From: Cordylochernes scorpioides
Lineage: Eukaryota > Arthropoda > Arachnida > Pseudoscorpiones > Chernetidae
Assembly: GCA_030710605.1 (NCBI GenBank)
Contig: CP092863.1
Span: 137,486,994 to 137,550,993, forward strand
DNA: 64,000 nucleotides
Reading direction: 5' to 3'
Of this stretch, positions 3,983 to 62,215 are shown piece by piece (position 1 is the stretch's first letter; every line of letters starts with the position of its first letter). The position numbers and the translations under genes were made by a program. The notes beneath the pieces are model-generated. The model was given only the letters and a program-made list of their open reading frames with translations. It was not told where the DNA came from and made no database searches.

Positions 3983-4181
3983 ATATATCCTGTAATTATT
4001 CTGCGTAGTATAAAATGAATGTCGAAATATATTCAGATTATTATTATTTTAAATGTTTTATTTTTTCTAATATGCAAAATTTATAATATAGAAAAAGATA
4101 CTACTATGTAACCAACGTTGATATACGCGTTTATTCCCTAATTATTAACCTATTTTCTTGATAAATCAAGATAAAGCTAGT

Positions 4182-4221
4182 AACGTACGGGTTTCGGGCT
4201 GTTGGTCCTCGACAACGTGGT
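4182..4221 (-). pseudogene. Decayed hammerhead ribozyme
   Basis: The minus strand aligns with the intact copy at 45687-45726 over its 40 nt. The core is changed to TTGTCGA, the cleavage triplet to GTA, and stem I is CCACG facing CGTTA, so it is not expected to cleave. AGATTTATCAAG-like flanks match the neighbouring part of the intact elements. Confidence 0.55.
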
Positions 4222-4224
4222 GTA

Positions 4225-5850: not shown

Positions 5851-6406
5851 TATATATCCACATAATAATAATAATAGTAAAATCCACACATACAACAATC
5901 TATTGTTATTATTTCTTTGAATAGTTCATTTTATTCGGGATTAAAAAAATAGTTGCACAACAGTCTTCAATATTTTCAAGCCATATAAAACTAAAAATTC
6001 ACTTTAAAACTTTATCAAAGCCAGAAAAAAAAACAACTTCAAACACTGTGATTTCTAGGGGAAAAAAGTAATCTTTTAAAAGAATGTTTTAAAAGAGTAA
6101 GTAAAATATATGTTGAGAAACAGTCTTTTAGAAAGTGTTGGTTCACTATTGTGAAAGTCTATTTTCTTATTTCGCTCAGGTGAAAATAAAACTTCGGTGT
6201 TTCTGTTGACTAGATTGTACTGGTTCCAATCTGATCCCTAATATACTTTTTTATTAAAAATAAAGAAGGCATCTCCTGACCACGAGCACATGTGCTTTAT
6301 AGAAGGCAGAGCGCCATCTAGTGGAGCAAGAATAAACTAAACGTTTATTTAGCTTGCTCCGTGATATTTGGCCAACCCAATTTCTTGATAAATCAAGAAA
6401 AGCCAT

Positions 6407-6446
6407 CCACGAACGCGTTTCGCGCTGTTGGCGCTCGTCAACGTGG
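6407..6446 (-). ncRNA. Hammerhead-type ribozyme, core mutated
   Basis: Minus-strand order: stem I CCACG, core TTGACGA, stem II GCGC-CAACA-GCGC, GAAAC, GCGTT, then stem I CGTGG. Stem I is a perfect 5 bp. Stem II is a perfect 4 bp and differs from other copies by a compensated change (GCGC/GCGC instead of GGGC/GCCC). The first core base C3 is T, which should abolish or strongly reduce cleavage. Confidence 0.65.
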
Positions 6447-6548
6447 AGTAGGCTGTAACCACTGCGACCAAAAATATTTTTTGGTCCCAATGGCTTCCCG
6501 AGAAATCAAGAAATATGTAAAAAAAAGTGATAAATAAAGAAAAACTAA

Positions 6549-6588
6549 CCACGAACGCGTTTCGGGGTTTTGGCCCTCGTCAGACTGG
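6549..6588 (-). ncRNA. Hammerhead-type ribozyme, stem I weakened
   Basis: The core CTGACGA and GAAAC are intact on the minus strand, with GCGTT as palindrome plus cleavage triplet. Stem II is GGGC-CAAAA-CCCC with one mismatch. The 5' side of stem I reads CCAGT instead of CCACG, leaving only three pairs with CGTGG. Confidence 0.6.
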
Positions 6589-6789
6589 TGCAGGCAATCA
6601 AGAAAATGGGTTGACCAAATATCAGGGAACAGGCTAGATCAACGTAGTAGAAAATTGTTTAATTTTTAAAAGAATCATATACGTCTATAATAGTTTCGAA
6701 ATTGAATTATAACTATACAGAGTCGTGTATGTATGAATAAACATACCCTTTAAAAAAGTGATATATATATATATATATATATATTATTA

Positions 6790-8365: not shown

Positions 8366-8514
8366 TTTTTTTTTTTTTTAATATCAGAGTTGATTGTAAG
8401 GTTATTACGTGTTATATATATAATCAATATTGATTTTTGTTTATTTATATATATATATGAAAAAAACAATAGAAAAAATAAAAGATAAATGGGTCAGGTG
8501 TTGATATCAAAAAT

Positions 8515-8667
8515 AATAAAGAAGGCATCTCCTGACCACGAGCACATGTGCTTTTTAGATGGCAGAGCGCCATCTAGTGGAGAAAGAATAAACTAAACGT
8601 TTATTTAGCTTGCTCCGTGATATTTGGCCAACCCAATTTCTTGATAAATCAAGAAAAGCAATCCACG
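8515..8667 (-). mobile_element. Family C ribozyme repeat ending at cleavage site
   Basis: The sequence matches 6262-6411 closely: AAGGCATCTCCTGACCACGA, CAGAGCGCCATCTAGTGG, then TTTGGCCAACCCAATTTCTT. It stops after the stem I bases CCACG at 8663-8667 and passes into unrelated ATATATATAT. On the minus strand the element's RNA would start with CGTGG, exactly the 5' end a hammerhead leaves. Confidence 0.7.
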
Positions 8668-8691
8668 ATATATATATATTTTTATATTTCT

Positions 8692-9057: not shown

Positions 9058-9380
9058 GCACATATATCTTTACTGCGCAATTCTGGCCATAACTACCCGT
9101 TTCATGATTTTTCAGGATGTCTGAATGACCAGTTTTTTTTTGTCGTTGAAATACAGTTTGAATCACGCTGATGAGGGCCAACATCCCGAAACGTGTCTGT
9201 GGTTAGCTTTTCTTGATTATTCAAAAATGGGTATTTGACCAATTCTTGAATAATTTAAAAAATCAATAAATAGTTGATATTTATTCCGATAGATGGCGCA
9301 AGTAATGGGTTGGCCAAATATCAGGGAACAGGTTAAATCAACGTTTAGTTGATTTCTGTTCCTTTAGATGGCGCTCTGCC
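9058..9380 (+). mobile_element. Penelope-like/retrozyme-like repeat with hammerhead (H then C)
   Basis: It runs GCGCAATTCTGGCCATAACT, CATGATTTTTCAGGATG, the hammerhead, GTGGTTAGCTTTTCTTGATT, and TTTATTCCGATAGATGGCGC. It then continues with family C sequence GGGTTGGCCAAATATCAGGG to GATGGCGCTCTGCCATC. A SINE fragment abuts at 9382. The same H layout occurs in reverse at 45540-45850. No protein-coding part is visible. Confidence 0.65.
9163..9202 (+). ncRNA. Hammerhead ribozyme, apparently complete
   Basis: Stem I TCACG pairs with TGTGG (9198-9202) with two wobbles. The core CTGATGA is at 9168-9174. Stem II is GGG-CCAACAT-CCC, GAAAC is at 9188-9192 and the cleavage triplet GTC ends at 9197. Stem III is only ACGTGT, too short for a monomer hairpin, as in Penelope-type hammerheads that act as dimers. 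All core bases are conserved. Activity is inferred, not shown. Confidence 0.75.
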
Positions 9381-9381
9381 A

Positions 9382-9535
9382 TCGGGTTCAAATCCCGCAT
9401 TGGACCCTTTTTTTTTTTCTTGAAAAATAATTGTTTCAATAAAAAACCCGTTTCTTGTGAAAGTCCAACCTCATCAATGAGTACAAGTAACCAATCAGAG
9501 CTATAGGAGATTTGTAAGTAACAAATCAATAAAAA
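9382..9535 (+). mobile_element. SINE family G, partial
   Basis: Begins at the B-box region GGGTTCAAATCCC (9383-9395) and continues CGCATTGGACCC and AGTCCAACCTCATCAATGAG, then AGTACAAGTAACCAA. It joins a ribozyme repeat at its left and lacks the A-box side. Confidence 0.65.
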
Positions 9536-13792: not shown

Positions 13793-14654
13793 AAAAACTT
13801 AAGGAAGTTTTACCTTTCGGATACCTATATCGGGATTCAAATAATAACTCTGAAAGATATTACAGTGACCTTTATTGAAGACACACGAGATAACCAAGTG
13901 TGAACAAAACTTAAGGAAGTTGTACCTTTCAGCATGTATATCGGTATTCAGACAATAACTCTGAAAGATATTACAGTGACCTTTATTGAAGACACACGAG
14001 ATAACCAAGTGTGAACAAAACTTAAGGAAGTTGTAACTTTCAGCATGTATATCGGGATTTAGACAATAACTCTGAAAGATATTACAGTGACCTTTATTGA
14101 AGACATACGAGATAACCAAGTGTGAACAAAACTTAAGGAAGTTGTACATTTTAGCATGTATATCGGGATTTAGACAATAACTCTGAAAGATATTACAGTG
14201 ACCTTTATTGAAGACATACGAGATAACCAAGTGTGAACAAAACTTAAGGAAGTTGTACATTTTAGCATGTATATCGGGATTTAGACAATAACTCTGAAAG
14301 ATATTACAGTGACCTTTATTGAAGACATACGAGATAACCAAGTGTGAACAAAACTTAAGGAAGTTGTACCTTTCAGCGTGTATATTGGGATTTAGACAAT
14401 AACTCTGAAAGATATTACAGTGACCTTTATTGAAGACATACGAGATAACCAAGTGTGAACAAAACTTAAGGAAGTTGTACCTTTCAGCGTGTATATTGGG
14501 ATTTAGACAATAACTCTGAAAGATATTATAGTGACCTTTATTAGAGACACACGAGATAACCATGCGTGAACCAAATTGCCTCTGTTTCCTTTTAAAAATA
14601 GACGAACGGCGATATCAAAGAATTTCCACTTTTTTATATTTTGTCCATGAGTAT
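13793..14654. mobile_element. Family M MITE with seven 111-bp units
   Basis: TTAAGGAAGTT recurs at 13799, 13911, 14022 and 14133, and so on with period 111. The right side has the family's internal tail (AGACGAACGGCGATATCAAA) and ends TTTTGTCCATGAGTATA, close to the canonical terminus. The left terminus is missing. The 254-codon minus-strand frame is a by-product of the period being a multiple of three. Confidence 0.85.
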
Positions 14655-17599: not shown

Positions 17600-18028
17600 G
17601 AAGCATAGGGCGCCTCTCCCGTTAAAGTAAACGTCAAAACTTGACGCTATCTATTGACCGTCGCCGCAACTAGCGGCCTCGGGTCGGTGACAAATCCACA
17701 ACACCAGCTTTGGCAAACTGAGAAGCGTCCTCTAGAGACCATGGTTTCGGGCTAATGGCCCTCGTCAGTCTAGGGTGGACTTTAATTCCATGAGATCCAC
17801 ATAGGATCTAATGGAATCTTGACAATCTGCCAAAGAGGTGTTTAGCTGGCAAAGTGGATGAGCCAAATCTATGGCTAGAATATAGATGGAAATTTTGCCG
17901 GACGCTTCTCAGTTTGCCAAAGCTGGTGCTGTGGCTTTGTCACCGACCCGAGGCCGCTAGCGGCGACGGTCAATAGATGGCGTCAAGTTTTAACGTTTAC
18001 TTTGACGGGAGAGGCGCCCTATGCTTCT
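17600..18028. mobile_element. Family D inverted-repeat element with hammerhead
   Basis: The left arm 17600-17730 (AGAAGCATAGGGCGCCTCTC ... GCAAACTGAGAAGCGTCC) is mirrored by 17900-18028. A hammerhead sits just inside the left arm, and the rest of the centre contains CTGCCAAAGAGGTGTTTAGC. Family D repeats at 29885-30210 share the same blocks in one orientation. This one therefore looks like two head-to-head pieces. Confidence 0.7.
17732..17773 (-). ncRNA. Hammerhead ribozyme, apparently complete (family D)
   Basis: Minus strand: stem I CTAGA, core CTGACGA, stem II GGGC-CATTA-GCCC (perfect 4 bp), GAAAC, then ATGGTC ending in the GTC cleavage triplet, then stem I TCTAG (perfect 5 bp). The stem III position holds the palindrome ACCATGGT, which can pair between two molecules or tandem units but not fold as a hairpin. 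All core bases are conserved. Confidence 0.8.
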
Positions 18029-20160: not shown

Positions 20161-20260
20161 TACCGGCTTACAATGATATCCTCACAATGATCAATCATAT
20201 TTATACACATGTGCAAAATAATAGAAAAAATAAAAAGGTCAGGTGTTAATAAATAAAAAT

Positions 20261-20513
20261 AAAGAAGGCATATCCTGACCAGGAGCACATGTAATTTTTA
20301 GATGGCAGAGCGCCATCTAGTGGAACAGAAATCAACTAAACATTGATTTAACCTGTTCCCTCATATTTGGCCAACCCAATTTCTTGATAAATCAATGGGT
20401 TGGCCAAATATCAGGAAACAGGTTAAATCAACGTTTAGTTGATTTCAGTTCCACTAGATGGCGTTCTGCCATCTAAAAAGTACATGTGCTCCTTGTCAGG
20501 ATATGTCTTCTTT
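20261..20513. mobile_element. Palindrome of family C ends (ribozyme region absent)
   Basis: AAAGAAGGCATATCCTGACC at the left is mirrored by AGGATATGTCTTCTTT at the right. Both arms carry the GATGGCAGAGCGCCATCTAG block and the TTTGGCCAACCCA block, and they meet at TTTCTTGATAAATCAATGGG. In the sibling at 6255-6655 this junction holds two hammerheads, which are missing here. Confidence 0.8.
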
Positions 20514-20519
20514 ATAGAT

Positions 20520-25104: not shown

Positions 25105-27764
25105 CACTCATGGACAAAGCTTAAGGAAGTGGAAAGTCTTTAATTTCGCCGGTCGTCTATTTTTATTTATTTATTTTTTTTGAAGGAGACAGAGGCAATT
25201 TTGTTCACACTATGATAACTCGTGTGTCTTCAATAAAGGTCACTGTAATATCTTTCAGAGTTATTGTCTCAATCCCGATATACATACTAAAAGGTACAAC
25301 TTCCTTAAGTTTTGTTTACACTTGGTTATCTCGTATGTCTTCAATAAAGGTCACTGTAATATCTTTCAGAGTTATTGTCTCAATCCCGATATACATACTA
25401 AAAGGTACAACTTCCTTAAGTTTTGTTTACACTTGGTTATCTTGTGTGTCTTCAATAAAGGTCACTGTAATATCTTTCAGAGTTATTGTCTGAATCCCGA
25501 TATACATACTAAAAGGTACAACTTCCTTAAGTTTTGTTTACACTTGGTTATCTTGTGTGTCTTCAATAAAGGTCACTGTAATATCTTTCAGAGTTATTGT
25601 CTGAATCCCGATATACATACTAAAAGGTACAACTTCCTTAAGTTTTGTTTACACTTGGTTATCTTGTGTGTCTTCAATAAAGGTCACTGTAATATCTTTC
25701 AGAGTTATTGTCTCAATCCCGATATACATACTAAAAGGTACAACTTCCTTAAGTTTTGTTTACACTTGGTTATCTTGTGTGTCTTCAATAAATTCACTGT
25801 AATATCTTTCAGAGTTATTGTCTCAATCCCGATATACATGCTAAAAGGTACAACTTCCTTAAGTTTTGTTTACACTTGGTTATCTCGTATGTCTTCAATA
25901 AAGGTCACTGTAATATCTTTCAGAGTTATTGTCTCAATCCAGATATACATGCTAAAAGGTACAACTTCCTTAAGTTTTGTTTACACTTGGTTATCTTGTG
26001 TGTCTTCAATAAATTCACTGTAATATCTTTCAGAGTTATTGTCTCAATCCCGATATACATGCTAAAAGGTACAACTTCCTTAAGTTTTGTTTACACTTGG
26101 TTATCTCGTATGTCTTCAATAAAGGTCACTGTAATATCTTTCAGAGTTATTGTCTCAATCCAGATATACATGCTAAAAGGTACAACTTCCTTAAGTTTTG
26201 TTTACACTTGGTTATCTCGTATGTCTTCAATAAAGGTCACTGTAATATCTTTCAGAGTTATTGTCTCAATCCAGATATACATGCTAAAAGGTACAACTTC
26301 CTTAAGTTTTGTTTACACTTGGTTATCTCGTATGTCTTCAATAAAGGTCACTGTAATATCTTTCAGAGTTATTGTCTCAATCCAGATATACATGCTAAAA
26401 GGTACAACTTCCTTAAGTTTTGTTTACACTTGGTTATCTTGTGTGTCTTCAATAAAGGTCACTGTAATATCTTTCAGAGTTATTGTCTCAATCCAGATAT
26501 ACATGCTAAAAGGTACAACTTCCTTAAGTTTTGTTTACACTTGGTTATCTTGTGTGTCTTCAATAAAGGTCACTGTAATATCTTTCAGAGTTATTGTCTG
26601 AATCCCGATATACATGCTAAAAGGTACAACTTCCTTAAGTTTTGTTTACACTTGGTTATCTCGTATGTCTTCAATAAAGGTCACTGTAATATCTTTCAGA
26701 GTTATTGTCTCAATCCAGATATACATGCTAAAAGGTACAACTTCCTTAAGTTTTGTTTACACTTGGTTATCTCGTATGTCTTCAATAAAGGTCACTGTAA
26801 TATCTTTCAGAGTTATTGTCTCAATCCAGATATACATGCTAAAAGGTACAACTTCCTTAAGTTTTGTTTACACTTGGTTATCTTGTGTGTCTTCAATAAA
26901 GGTCACTGTAATATCTTTCAGAGTTATTGTCTCAATCCAGATATACATGCTAAAAGGTACAACTTCCTTAAGTTTTGTTTACACTTGGTTATCTTGTGTG
27001 TCTTCAATAAAGGTCACTGTAATATCTTTCAGAGTTATTGTCTGAATCCCGATATACATGCTAAAAGGTACAACTTCCTTAAGTTTTGTTTACACTTGGT
27101 TATCTTGTGTGTCTTCAATAAAGGTCACTGTAATATCTTTCAGAGTTATTGTCTGAATCCCGATATACATGCTAAAAGGTACAACTTCCTTAAGTTTTGT
27201 TTACACTTGGTTATCTTGTGTGTCTTCAATAAAGGTCACTGTAATATCTTTCAGAGTTATTGTCTGAATCCCGATATACATGCTAAAAGGTACAACTTCC
27301 TTAAGTTTTGTTTACACTTGGTTATCTTGTGTGTCTTCAATAAAGGTCACTGTAATATCTTTCAGAGTTATTGTCTGAATCCCGATATACATGCTAAAAG
27401 GTACAACTTCCTTAAGTTTTGTTTACACTTGGTTATCTTGTGTGTCTTCAATAAAGGTCACTGTAATATCTTTCAGAGTTATTGTCTGAATCCCGATATA
27501 CATGCTAAAAGGTACAACTTCCTTAAGTTTTGTTTACACTTGGTTATCTTGTGTGTCTTCAATAAAGGTCACTGTAATATCTTTCAGAGTTATTGTCTGA
27601 ATCCCGATATACATGCTAAAAGGTACAACTTCCTTAAGTTTTGTTTACACTTGGTTATCTTGTGTGTCTTCAATAAAGGTCACTGTAATATCTTTCAGAG
27701 TTATTGTCTGAATCCCGATATACATGATAAAATGTACAACTTCCTTAAGTTTTGTCCATGAGTG
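25105..27764. mobile_element. Family M MITE expanded to about 23 units of 111 bp
   Basis: Ends CACTCATGGACAAAGCTTAA and TTAAGTTTTGTCCATGAGTG lie between TA dinucleotides (25103-25104, 27765-27766). The left 115 bp is single-copy family sequence (TTTCGCCGGTCGTCTATTTT, GGAGACAGAGGCAATTTTGT). Then the unit CTTCAATAAAGGTCACTGTA ... CAACTTCCTTAAG repeats to the right end with period 111. Units near 25790 and 26015 lack one base. Neighbouring units are almost identical, suggesting recent amplification. Long plus-strand frames, including 26097-27761, are by-products. Confidence 0.9.
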
Positions 27765-29884: not shown

Positions 29885-30210
29885 TTTTTGACGGGAGAGG
29901 CGACCCGTGTCTCTTTAGATTAATTTCCTCCCGGCAAAATTTCCATCTATATTTTAGCCATAGATTTGGCCCAGTCACTTTGCCAGCTAAACACCTCTTT
30001 GGCAGATTGTCAAGATTCCTTTAGATCCAGTGTGGATCTCATGGAATAAAGTCCGCGCTAGACCGACGAGGGCCATTAGCCCGAAACCATGGTCTCTAGA
30101 TGGACGCTTTTCTGTTTGCCAAAGCTGGTGTTGTGGCTTTGTCACTGACCCGAGGTCGCTAGTTGTAGACGTCTATTTTGACGCGAGAGGCGACCCTTGC
30201 CTCTTTAGAT
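29885..30210 (+). mobile_element. Family D retrozyme-like unit, 290-bp period
   Basis: A block of about 36 bp (TTTTGACGGGAGAGGCGACC, then CTCTTTAGAT) at 29885-29920 recurs at 30175-30210, giving a 290-bp unit. The unit holds a hammerhead at 30058-30099 and CTGCCAAAGAGGTG-like and GTTTGCCAAAGCTGGTG blocks. No protein is encoded. This size and layout fit animal retrozymes, but a Penelope-like terminal repeat is an alternative. Confidence 0.65.
30058..30099 (+). ncRNA. Hammerhead-type ribozyme, one core change
   Basis: Stem I CTAGA pairs perfectly with TCTAG, stem II GGGC-CATTA-GCCC is perfect, GAAAC is intact, and the ACCATGGT palindrome and GTC triplet are present. The core reads CCGACGA, so U4 is C, which should impair activity. 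Confidence 0.7.
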
Positions 30211-36744: not shown

Positions 36745-36940
36745 GACACTTCCTCATCGTGCAACTAGAAGTTTCTAATGGATTGCGCCATCTGTCAGAA
36801 TAAATATCAACTATAAACGTTGATTTTTTTTCAATTATTCCATAATGTTAGCCGAATACCCTATCTTGATTGGCTAAAAAAGCCAATCGCGTACGCGTTT
36901 CGGGTTGTTGGCCCCCTTCAGCGTGGTGCAGGCTGTATAA
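36745..36940. mobile_element. Family H repeat with decayed hammerhead
   Basis: TGGATTGCGCCATCTGTCAG, a TATTCCATAATGTTAGCCGA segment, TGATTGGCTAAAAAAGCCAA, then the ribozyme remnant on the minus strand at about 36887-36926. It has core CTGAAGG, stem II GGGCCAACAACCC, GAAAC and GCGTA, and stem I largely lost. Same order as 45540-45850. Confidence 0.6.
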
Positions 36941-37569
36941 CGAAGATCAAAGTCTTTGAGGCTTCCAGAAAAAAATGAAGGGTATTTAAGGCCATAAGAA
37001 TACGTGAGAACACTTCTGTACTATTTTTATTCATAAAAGTGATTTCATTTGTCGAAATATAGAAGGCAAATACTTTTTTTTTTATAATGAAAATACAACT
37101 TTTTGGAATGTCATTTTCTATGGATTGCGAGAAACTAAATGTTTATCTTCAGCACCTATTCTCCTTTGTCTATGGAGTATTTCCTAGAAGCCACATGTTT
37201 CCTACGACCAGAACGTGCCCATTCCTTCAAACTGCTTCATTTTGTAAAGTTGCGACATCAATGTTAACACGTTGGTTATTGTGTTGGTTGATATTTCTGT
37301 CCTCTTCTTTTATTTGCATAGACACATTCTCTGGCGGAAATAATGGAACAACGTGTGTGTAGATGACAATTTAGATTATAGATATAAGACAACAAGATTA
37401 CATACAAATGATTTATTCAGTATTTTTCTCTGGAGATGGTATTTTTGTCTGTATTTTCCCAAACTGGTGTTGTGTCCCATTCCTTATCACCATTAATAAA
37501 GTTTTCCAATAGGATAATAAATATAATGCATTGTGTTCTAACACAAAGCAATAACGCGCCATCTATACA

Positions 37570-38320: not shown

Positions 38321-38440
38321 TATAGTTATTTATTTAACTGTATTCAACAGAAAGTTTCGGAAGGATGATATTCATGTGTCAGAATTAAAGGGAGAGATGC
38401 TTCTTTTGGCACATATAATACAAATATATATTTACATATA

Positions 38441-38714
38441 CACCTATCCCCCGATTTACACGGTAGATACGTTCCTGAGAAAAACGTGTAAATCGAAAAA
38501 AAAGAATGTCTTATTTTAAATCTTTCAAACCAGCCATGATTTGCCAAAAAATTTGGCTTCTTTTCAGTTGAAGAAGAAGATGGCAATTGCTCTACAATTT
38601 TTTCGTATAGTATTTCGTTAGTATATTGCGATAAAAACAAAAAAAAAATATTTGGAAAACCGTGTAAAAGCGAAAACGTGTAAAACAAGTACCGTGTAAA
38701 TCGGGGGACAGGTG
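38441..38714. mobile_element. Tigger-like element with transposase remnant
   Basis: CACCTATCCCCCGATTTACA and TGTAAATCGGGGGACAGGTG form inverted ends of the CCCCCGATTTAC type known from Tigger elements. TA lies on both sides (38439-38440, 38715-38716). The 274-bp interior carries the remnant described at 38497-38628. Confidence 0.85.
38497..38628 (-). pseudogene. Pogo/Tigger transposase fragment, CENP-B-type HTH
   Basis: Within a minus-strand frame, about 44 codons read YEKIVEQLP, then NFLANHGWFERFKIRHSFF. The GWFERFKxRH core is the hallmark of the CENP-B-type helix-turn-helix that binds DNA in pogo/Tigger transposases. Everything else of the transposase is missing: the catalytic DDD/E domain and the N-terminal HTH. 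The remaining codons of the 148-codon frame (38344-38790) lie in the terminal repeats or outside the element. This is a deletion derivative and produces no working enzyme. Confidence 0.7.
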
Positions 38715-39221
38715 TATAATGAAAATCAACGAGAATAATTGATATGTATTCCGATAGATGGTGCAAGTCATCAGCAACTTTCATTTGCACGATAAAGAGA
38801 TGCCGTTTTCATAACATATAACTATGTACGAAAAAATTCTAAACTCTTTCTATTATTATCTATTATAAAGTGTGTGTGTGTTCATATGGAGTCCCTTAGA
38901 TAAAAATTTAACTCTATTTCTATAGATTTTTTTTCACACTTTAAGACACACACTATCTTAAGAAAATATATTTTAAAATAATTAGATTAGGTAAAGAAGA
39001 ATTATCGACAATTATTTTTTAACATCTCCATTCTATTCAAACAAAATGTAAAAAACAAATTTTAAAAAAGAGATTTAATGAAATATCAATATTGACACTC
39101 TCTATTAATACACGCCATCATTCGATTTTAAAAGGAATTAAACCCTAAAAATAGAAGAAGAAAAAAAAAACACTTTGAAAAAAAAATCTTCAATATATAT
39201 ATATATACAAGTTGAATCAAC

Positions 39222-44800: not shown

Positions 44801-45540
44801 TTTCCACAGTATCCATATTTTAAAGTATTTTTTCATAACTAATTTTATAAAATACTTTATATCCAGGAGCTCATGCTCAAAACCCCATGAGATCTCCAAA
44901 AGCTATATATTTTAAAATCTTATATATTTCTAAATTTATATCTAAATAGTATTTCTTTTAATGATATATATTTAAATTTAGAAAGAATTCTGAATATAGT
45001 ATTAAAATAAAAATCCTGAAAACATTTTTCATAATCATATAACTGTTTAGAAAACACACCAAAAAAGGTTTTTTTAATGAATATAACAATTTTTTATTTT
45101 TATATGTTCAAAACTATTTTGAAAGCGTCAAATTATTCTTAATCAAATAATATGTATATATATTTCAATGACAAAAAAAAAAGAATGAAAATGAAAAATA
45201 TCAACACAAATTTCTATAGTTCGTTATATAGATTTATATAACTAGATATTTTCAACTATATAAAAATACTTATACAAAATAAAGAATAAAATAAAGGAGA
45301 ATATCGCTATTTTAACATTAAAAGTTAATAAAAAAGATATAAGTGAATTTTAAAAAGCGTCACAATATATAGTGATGTTTTTTTCATTAGGTTCGACTAT
45401 ATTTTGTCATCAAATTGTCTTTTCCTTCACATCTGGTATAGCTGATTGGCGTGTATTAAATCCTGATGGGAATTTAATACCATCCAAGAAATTTAAAGAG
45501 AAAAGTTGAAAATGATATTTAGTGAGATACCGAGATATAT
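44800..45540. other. No feature recognised
   Basis: AT-rich DNA with no supportable structure. Confidence 0.5.
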
Positions 45541-45850
45541 TAAGAAAAAGGCATCTCCTTATTGTGCAACTGAAAGTTGCTGATGGCTTGCGCCATCTAT
45601 TGGAATAAATATCAACTATTCTCGTAGATTTTTAATTATTCCAGAATTGGCCAAATACCCATTCTTGATTAATCAAGAAAAGCTAACCACGGACGCGTTT
45701 CGGGCTGTTGGCCCTCATCAGCGTGGTGCAAGCTGTATCTCAACGACCAAAAAAACTGGTCCTTCAGGCATCCTAATGCCTGATGCCTTTTTCTTAATTT
45801 ATGCACCTTATCCCAGTACAATATCACATTTGTACTATTTTTCCCACCGA
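45540..45850 (-). mobile_element. Family H repeat with complete hammerhead
   Basis: Read from the minus strand: AAGGCATCAGGCATTAGGAT, GACCAGTTTTTTTGGTCGTT, GAGATACAGCTTGCACCACG, the ribozyme, GTGGTTAGCTTTTCTTGATT, TTTGGCCAATTCTGG and TTTATTCCAATAGATGGCGC. It ends in GCAACTTTCAGTTGCAC. This matches 9058-9330 in the other orientation. No coding region is present. Confidence 0.7.
45687..45726 (-). ncRNA. Hammerhead ribozyme, complete
   Basis: Minus strand: stem I CCACG, core CTGATGA, stem II GGGC-CAACA-GCCC (perfect 4 bp), GAAAC, GCGTC with GTC cleavage triplet, stem I CGTGG (perfect 5 bp). ACGCGT at the stem III position is self-complementary. Penelope-type hammerheads with such short stem III are known to work better as dimers. 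All conserved core bases are present. It is the cleanest copy in the window. Confidence 0.85.
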
Positions 45851-46029
45851 GATATATATCAACCTTCAATACCGAATCTGTTAGATTTCAGAAATGGTCA
45901 ATAGATGGCACTCAACTTCTATGTGTTGGAAATAGCTCATTTTACTGCTGGAAGAATTGATATTAGTTTAACGTTACATATGATGAGTCAAGTCCTACCA
46001 TAATTTCTCATAAAGAGGTCAGTGTGTGT

Positions 46030-57622: not shown

Positions 57623-58259
57623 CACTCATGGACAAAACTTGAAGAAGTTGTACATTTTAGCATGTATATCGGGATTCAGACAATAACTCTGAAAGATATT
57701 ACAGTGACCTTTATTGAAGACACACGAGATAACCAAGTGTGAACAAAACTTAAAGAAGTTGTACATTTTATAATGTATATCGGGATTCAGACAATAACTC
57801 TGAAAGATATTATAGTGACCTTTATTGAAGACACACGAGGTAACCAAGTGTAAACAAAACTTAAGGAAGTTGTACCTTTTAGCATGTATATCGGGATTCA
57901 GACAATAACTCTGAAAGATATTACAGTGACCTTTATTGAAGACACACGAGATAACCAAGTGTGAACAAAACTTAAAGAAGTTGTACATTTTATAATGTAT
58001 ATCGGGATTCAGACAATAACTCTGAAAGATATTATAATGACCTTTATTGAAGACACACGAGGTAACCAAGTGTAAACAAAACTTAAGGAAGTTGTACATT
58101 TTAGCATGTATATTAGGGATTCAGACAATAACTCTGAAAGATATTTTATTGAAGACACACAAGATAACCAAGTGTAAACAAAATTGCTTTGTCTCCTTTA
58201 AAAAAACAGACGACCAGCGACATCAATATATGAAACTCCTTAAGTTTTGTCCATGAGTG
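57623..58259. mobile_element. Family M MITE, five units in alternating pairs
   Basis: CACTCATGGACAAAACTTGA and TTAAGTTTTGTCCATGAGTG lie between TA dinucleotides. Units alternate between two variants (AAAGAAGTTGTACATTTTAT and AAGGAAGTTGTACCTTTTAG), giving a higher-order period of 222 bp. The last unit has a deletion (GATATTTTATTGAAGACAC). Confidence 0.85.
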
Positions 58260-61689: not shown

Positions 61690-62215
61690 TGACCATCACA
61701 TAAGCATTTGTAAATGGCATAGCGCCTTTTAGCTTATTCCATTTCTTGACAAATTAAGAAGAGTCAGCCAGGTTTGCACAGACACATATATATATATGTG
61801 TGAAAAAAAAAAGTACAAATGTGATATTGTACTGGAATAAGGTTGATGAATTAAAAGAAAAAAGGGCATCTTCTTATCAGGTAACTGAAAGTTTCTGATA
61901 TTTGGCCAATTCTGGAATAATTAAAAATCAATAAGGAGATGCCCTTTTTTTATAATTTATCCACCTTATCCCAGTACAATATCACCTTTGTACTGTTTTT
62001 TCACATTGTGTCGCGGTCTCACGCAAATTCTGGCCTTTAACTACCCGTTTCATGATTTTTCAGGATGCCTGAATGACCAGTTTTTTGGTCGTTGGGGTAC
62101 AGCTTGCCAATTCTGGAATAATTAGAAATCAATGAATAGTTTATATTTATTATGATAGATAGTGCAAGCTATAAGCAACTTTCAGTTGCCTGATAAGTAG
62201 ATCCCTTTTTTTTTT
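61690..62215. repeat. Families C/H foldback with ribozyme deleted
   Basis: AAAGGGCATCTTCTTATCAG, TTGGCCAATTCTGGAATAAT and AAGGAGATGCCCTTTTTTT form a palindrome at 61858-61950. Then TTCTGGCCTTTAACTACCCG, CATGATTTTTCAGGATGCCT and GTACAGCTTGCC join AATTCTGGAATAATTAG directly. The hammerhead expected at that junction is missing. Confidence 0.65.

Follow-up and report, generated by a model that had tools for sequence, protein, structure and literature searches.

A hammerhead ribozyme in a pseudoscorpion genome probably belongs to a short non-coding, retrozyme-like element inserted by Penelope-type machinery

The hammerhead motif on the minus strand at positions 45687..45726 is very probably, on the sequence evidence, the ribozyme of a short non-coding retrozyme-like element, which would be inserted by the reverse transcriptase (RT) and GIY-YIG endonuclease of a Penelope-like element (PLE). 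The motif lies in a 64,000-nucleotide stretch of contig C1 of the pseudoscorpion Cordylochernes scorpioides (genome of 2.62 Gb in 24 contigs), referred to here as the window. It is the pattern of unit ends at insertion sites, together with the same rule in a PLE of the same genome, that makes the units look like retrozymes moved by PLE machinery.

The window hammerhead is genuine and its position is exact. Read from 45726 to 45687, the minus strand is CCACG CTGATGA GGGC CAACA GCCC GAAA CGCG TC CGTGG, comprising stem I (CCACG/CGTGG), the core CTGATGA, stem II (GGGC/GCCC), the GAAA and, at the position of stem III, ACGCGT. The conserved core and the three helices, open at stem I, are those of a type I hammerhead, and cleavage is expected after C45692. 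Stem I lengthens to ACCACG/CGTGGT (6 pairs), followed by a small internal loop and then AGCT/AGCT (4 pairs). Both the internal loop UGC/U and the loop CAACA can be read in the sequence, and stem III has at most 2 bp in the monomer. The original prediction had described these letters as a minimal type I hammerhead of the Penelope and retrozyme kind with a self-complementary stem III; the letters, the class and the palindrome were all as described. A descriptor of core plus stems matched the window 2 times under strict and 3 times under relaxed settings, compared with totals of 0 and 1 in 200 second-order Markov windows.

The covariance-model search that had been proposed as a check gave a divided outcome. 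No family reached its gathering score in an Rfam search of the window, which formally counted against the prediction; RF02275 (Hammerhead_HH9) scored the hammerhead at 26.5 bits in a focused search (E 2.3e-4; gathering score 52). A model, R1, whose 22 source copies were all taken from beyond the window, scored positions 45680-45735 at 87.6 bits (rough E of about 1e-25), the top of 8 matches in the window. An exact 29-mer found no match in the viral_contigs or genome_contigs collections, which may omit records of this genome.

The hammerhead is part of an insertion that the original prediction overlooked, a head-to-head pair of arms flanked by the 12-bp direct repeat ACCGAGATATAT (Table 1). We numbered the unit from the base just 3' of the cleavage site as position 1. 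On this scale, 45535-45774 maps to unit 257->157, with the start of the arm trimmed to the edge of the direct repeat, and 45782-45842 is a 61-nt plus-strand arm that maps to unit 137->197. The hammerhead copy is not tandem. Seven further R1 matches beside 45680-45735, mostly damaged, were also missing from that prediction. Six of the eight matches belong to the hammerhead family of the units termed A and D below and two (17723-17782 and 30049-30109) to another. Judged by the bases that are essential in the hammerhead core, 45680-45735 alone among the six same-family copies has an undamaged core and undamaged stems. In the copy at 9154-9209 the core is preserved, with G-U pairs and the loss of one stem II pair, and the remaining four have an altered core or a broken stem. 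A D-type copy at 8461-8668 has its 5' end within one base of the cleavage position, a single case that is probably due to chance; we set it aside as main evidence, 5' ends across loci showing no cluster at the cleavage site.

Several other features of the window were recorded. The second hammerhead family, with ACCATGGT at the stem III position and inverted arms, has similar cores in loci L003 and L004 and may be another PLE or retrozyme family. By eye, 9299-9430 consists of the D-type arm of the 9076 copy followed by an apparent tRNA 3' half and a run of T; an ARAGORN scan of the window returned no tRNA. A 111-bp satellite forms several arrays (13794-14575, 25199-27755, 57632-58152 and others), and an open frame at 38344-38808 (-) gives a weak Tc5-type transposase DNA-binding match below the Pfam cut-off.

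Table 1. Hammerhead copies and associated unit arms in the window
Feature	Position	Strand	Basis
Minimal type I hammerhead	45687..45726	-	Sequence reading; descriptor chance control
Entire hammerhead domain including distal stem I AGCT/AGCT	45680..45735	-	87.6 bits; covariation
Long arm of the insertion, running from about unit A position 257 across the hammerhead as far as the short end	45541..45774	-	Unit mapping
Short inverted arm, running from about unit A position 137 as far as the long end, with tail	45782..45845	+	Unit mapping
Putative target-site duplication ACCGAGATATAT, one side	45529..45540	.	12 nt, 100%
Putative target-site duplication ACCGAGATATAT, other side	45846..45857	.	12 nt, 100%
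Second copy with intact catalytic core, domain 9154-9209; joins D-type arm 9299-9383	9076..9302	+	R1; unit mapping
Two damaged same-orientation hammerheads, 6542-6597 (-) and 6400-6455 (-), with inverted D arm 6597-6642 (+)	6253..6642	.	
Damaged copy: core A9 altered, stem I broken	36751..37014	-	R1; unit mapping
Damaged hammerhead fragment	4155..4222	-	R1; unit mapping
D-type copy without hammerhead core, AT-repeat flanks	8461..8668	-	Unit mapping
D-type head-to-head pair, ends long (193) and short (151), without hammerhead	20215..20514	.	Unit mapping
Other-family hammerhead with CTGACGA and the palindrome ACCATGGT, flanked by inverted arms of about 134 bp	17723..17782	-	
Damaged relative of the 17723 hammerhead	30049..30109	+	R1

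The same family is abundant throughout the genome. A pattern of core, 11 unspecified bases and ACGCGT had 36,581 exact genome matches (18,262 + 18,319; reversed control 0 + 0), and a 36-base stretch of the downstream arm had 14,180 (control 0). Units occur singly, in tandem and as head-to-head pairs. From natural arrays we defined a unit A of 338 nt (GC 0.41) and a unit D of 350 nt (GC 0.40), which are 68% identical to each other and non-coding, with a longest frame of 44 aa across two units. Adjacent units are 100% identical inside each of the two reference arrays. Five hammerheads follow one another in the array at L044, and seven minus and five plus unit matches stand head to head in 338-base steps at C15:76584498-76588471. 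L010 repeats the plan of the window insertion with three ribozyme units (two direct, one inverted) that are more than 99% identical, and its ends carry the 12-bp repeat ATATTCTACTAT. A 201-base stretch of unit A was found at 100% identity in at least 40 places on 10 contigs (40 scored of 626 candidates). As far as sequence can tell, the family has been active recently. At L046 (C1:4128000-4130000), one arm carries a short internal tandem of three hammerheads spaced 114 nt apart, in which most of the unit is missing.

The original prediction had called the hammerhead dimer-type, and it is the modelled energy of the double hammerhead that speaks for this label. Two window-type 56-mers gave -42.9 kcal/mol as a double hammerhead, 0.5 kcal/mol above the lowest dimer energy of -43.4, and 2 x -18.8 as two monomers. 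For a pair of D-type domains the double hammerhead reached -45.1 kcal/mol versus a dimer minimum of -47.7, another fold being favoured by 2.6. The energy model forbids the active fold of the monomer because of its 2-nt hairpin loop; RNAalifold favours an alternative inner pairing over the core, as does the minimum fold of the monomer. Given a stem III of at most two pairs in the monomer and the single ribozyme in the window insertion, a partner RNA would be needed for the self-processing that the original prediction proposed, and dimer-type is a reasonable label within the limits of the energy model. Small hammerhead variants of PLEs that cleave as dimers are reportedly the subject of a 2017 study by Luense et al.; by title alone, these are alike in the small hammerhead and the proposed dimer action.

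Covariation was assessed among 28 distinct domains extracted with a fixed 13-base-gap pattern, of which 22 were used together with six window copies. L027, L037, L085, L087, L097 and L101 were left out for changed flanks or as members of another family, and the fixed gap also kept out those copies whose spacer has 12 bases (L002, L005, L010 and others). In the resulting alignment (28 rows, 27 distinct), whose core columns are partly fixed by the extraction pattern, 94.9% of pair cells hold standard pairs. Cells changed on both sides numbered 30 over the 28 rows, compared with 11.4 +- 2.7 after shuffling and at most 5 in slid versions. The pairs with such changes numbered 4, no more than in shuffles (3.9); two of them fall in distal stem I, one in stem I proper and one in stem II. 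The covariation mostly reflects the division into A and D types and so records few events.

We mapped the ends of arms in L001-L105 other than L003, L004, L007 and L008, which belong to other families; nearly all of the loci come from contig C1. Arms that came within 40 nt of the edge of a locus were discarded, as were further occurrences of a flank already counted. Insertion ends fall in two narrow unit zones separated by about 48 nt, classed as short (unit 140-170) or long (unit 186-225). Head-to-head pairs numbered 56, of which 49 had both ends classified and 7 had an end that fitted neither class. A short end was combined with a long one in 45 of the 49, for which the binomial P of 4e-10 against one half is descriptive, the classes having been set after the first end lists were viewed. 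Three of the four exceptions were short-short and one was long-long. The rule held in 34 of 37 classified pairs at loci taken in listed order (42 pairs in total) and in 11 of 12 at loci chosen by ribozyme layout (14 pairs in total), and the long end lay on the left in 20 and on the right in 25 of the 45 short-long pairs. The direct repeats that bound these insertions had a median length of 12 nt and reached at least 10 nt in 35, compared with 11.6% of 878 pairings in a shuffled control, although AT-rich flanks leave some of the repeats uncertain. The 54 insertions with one arm ended at the short end in 34 cases, at the long end in 11 and elsewhere in 9. The 5' and inner ends were scattered with no cluster at the cleavage site, within positions limited by the patterns used to choose loci, and the 5' ends give no support for use of the ribozyme in insertion.

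The same genome holds PLEs with which these ends can be compared. A GIY-YIG search of the genome gave at least 146 matches (150 scored of 17,015 candidates). One young family, seen at L107 and L118, combines an RT frame, whose motifs we read as Penelope-type, with a GIY-YIG frame (E 9.6e-7); its RT matched RVT_1 at E 1.2e-6 and 28.9 bits, slightly below the cut-off of 29.6, and the L118 copy is split into several frames. Forty scored places of this family (of 3,372 candidates) are 98-100% identical over 200 bases. Among the places listed, minus and plus neighbours within 2 kb occurred 6 times (L107 and five more), and each was read at both ends. All six of these close head-to-head pairs combine a short end with a long one, the same rule as in the hammerhead units. 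The longest direct repeats in the five pairs besides L107 measure 12, 12, 12, 14 and 12 nt. The long end has an extra tail of about 36-40 nt, which in L118 coincides, by eye, with the start of the reading frame, as the tail does in rotifer PLEs according to the available text of PMC3846280.

A different hammerhead-like stretch was found in this young PLE family by regular expression and eye. R1 had no match in L106, L118 or the PLE part of L107, and its one match in L107, at 4614, is a copy of unit A. In the three PLE loci inspected (L106, L107 and L118), no PLE was seen to share its ribozyme or its tail with unit A or D. L106 (C4:92404600-92408400) has an RT frame (RVT_1 E 1.1e-15) of another Penelope-looking lineage, with a GIY-YIG place in the next frame, where Pfam gave no family.

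Under the PLE-driven reading, a multimeric or circular unit RNA would be bound by the PLE protein, and the two target strands would both be cut, the two cuts being offset by about 12 nt. Each DNA 3' end would then prime reverse transcription on the unit RNA, at the short start site on one strand and the long start site on the other, and the two cDNAs would join head to head. With each strand using one site, the product would be a head-to-head pair with a short and a long end, and the length of the duplication would equal the stagger. The ribozyme would act, in this model, once two unit RNAs pair through ACGCGU, cutting multimers to unit length. As units run unbroken across the cleavage site, the templates would be uncleaved multimers or re-ligated circles. 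With more reserve, we think it rather probable that animal retrozymes are satellites of PLEs, and that each complete insertion is a two-strand event in which paired PLE RTs start at two sites of the ribozyme RNA, one per strand.

Other origins of the units were weighed against the same evidence. The units could be solo pseudo-LTRs (pLTRs) of a full-length PLE family with the same ribozyme, and not an independent non-autonomous element. PLE pLTRs with minimal hammerheads are described in the available part of PMC7761336, and the inverted pLTR and tail of PMC3846280 agree with such an origin; it is nevertheless unlikely, as the whole-unit arrays at L044 and C15:76584498-76588471 leave no space for a reading frame and the 44-aa maximum across two units provides none. 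Moreover, no PLE was recognised when frames of at least 150 aa in L001-L105 were inspected by eye. An RT frame does occur in L009, between two same-orientation ribozyme units 3.5 kb apart; it matches RVT_1 and other C. scorpioides RT proteins and looks LINE-like. L009 was rejected as a full PLE, and the arrangement is probably a nested insertion. This frame could also be taken to favour a LINE as the mover, which the retrozyme authors named as possible (PMC7229834, in the part available). To our knowledge, LINEs do not leave two end zones or head-to-head pairs whose ends both lie at the target junctions, which speaks against a LINE. We regard movement of the units by a LINE as very improbable.

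Inverted ends with target direct repeats, for example at 61805-62000 in the window and in L010, recall the terminal inverted repeats of a MITE-type DNA transposon that had acquired a ribozyme. Such a transposon should have equal terminal inverted repeats, but in 45 of 49 pairs one end is about 48 nt longer than the other, the inner ends are variable, 54 insertions have a single arm and tandem units have a fixed length, so that this origin seems remote. The unequal ends also disfavour snap-back (self-primed) second-strand synthesis at the palindrome TTGATTAATCAA, from which equal ends on both arms would be expected. Twelve inner ends of A arms do fall at unit 11-31, as in L052, and self-priming was inferred from junction palindromes in PMC3846280 (as far as its available text goes); snap-back may be the source of some junctions and is improbable as the source of the inverted arms in general. 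The least credible reading is an ordinary, immobile satellite DNA with a fossil ribozyme. Tandem arrays and the damage in most of the 8 R1 matches in the window would suit it, but it is disfavoured by dispersal, with insertions flanked by direct repeats and at least 40 places on 10 contigs identical to the 201-base stretch.

If paired PLE RTs do start at two sites, one per strand, the rule of one short and one long end would be a genomic fossil of an asymmetric PLE dimer, legible in tens of thousands of copies. The insertion sites themselves implicate one enzyme for animal retrozymes, whose mover is left open in the available parts of PMC7229834 and PMC7761336, and the hammerhead units form a large natural data set on PLE insertion, which has been examined in vitro with one lizard PLE (PMC11167929, in the part available). 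Retrozyme hammerheads and PLE hammerheads are both kinds already known. What is new, within the literature searched, is that a non-autonomous ribozyme unit follows the end rule of PLEs, as counted in many insertions and as matched by a PLE in the same genome; the titles and abstract openings of the open-licence papers listed contain no description of PLE-type ends on animal retrozymes.

Compared with known systems, the units resemble the animal non-LTR retrozymes of Cervera and de la Pena 2020 (PMC7229834, in the part available), which have one type I hammerhead in tandem non-coding units of 170-400 nt, a GC content below 45% and target duplications longer than 4 bp. The 338- and 350-nt units, at GC 0.41 (A) and 0.40 (D) and with repeats of at least 10 nt in 35 of 45 pairs, have all of these features, but differ in their minimal, self-complementary stem III; head-to-head pairs with two end zones are not described in the available text of that report. 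It attributes efficient cleavage to most invertebrate retrozymes and dimer action to vertebrate ones, and calls PLEs strong candidate movers, while PMC7761336, as far as available, notes no conserved motif in the repeats that would reveal the partner. The Hammerhead_HH9 model of RF02275 is alike in core and helix order and differs in a longer stem III, the window hammerhead scoring below its gathering score.

The resemblance to endonuclease PLEs lies in the insertions. Units A and D code for no protein, so the RT and GIY-YIG frames of a PLE are lacking, and their two ends are found about 157 or 203 nt beyond the cleavage site, in both of which they differ from the PLEs of PMC3846280 and PMC11167929 as described in the parts available. 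The inverted pLTR, the optional tail on one inverted pLTR and the TSD of 8-10 bp are given in the available text of PMC3846280. According to the accessible portion of Frangieh et al. (PMC11167929), the lizard PLE cuts and extends both strands, and its RT has two internal start sites on the RNA with the tail between them. Ribozyme mutants of that element insert in vitro and RNA-seq ends are absent at the cleavage site, which agrees with a ribozyme that is dispensable for insertion. Within these same sources, the C. scorpioides units share with endonuclease PLEs the head-to-head inverted copies with target duplication (56 pairs here), AT-rich targets, two start sites and an optional tail at one of the two inverted ends (45 of 49 unit pairs and 6 of 6 PLE pairs), and with the lizard PLE a hammerhead close to the ends.
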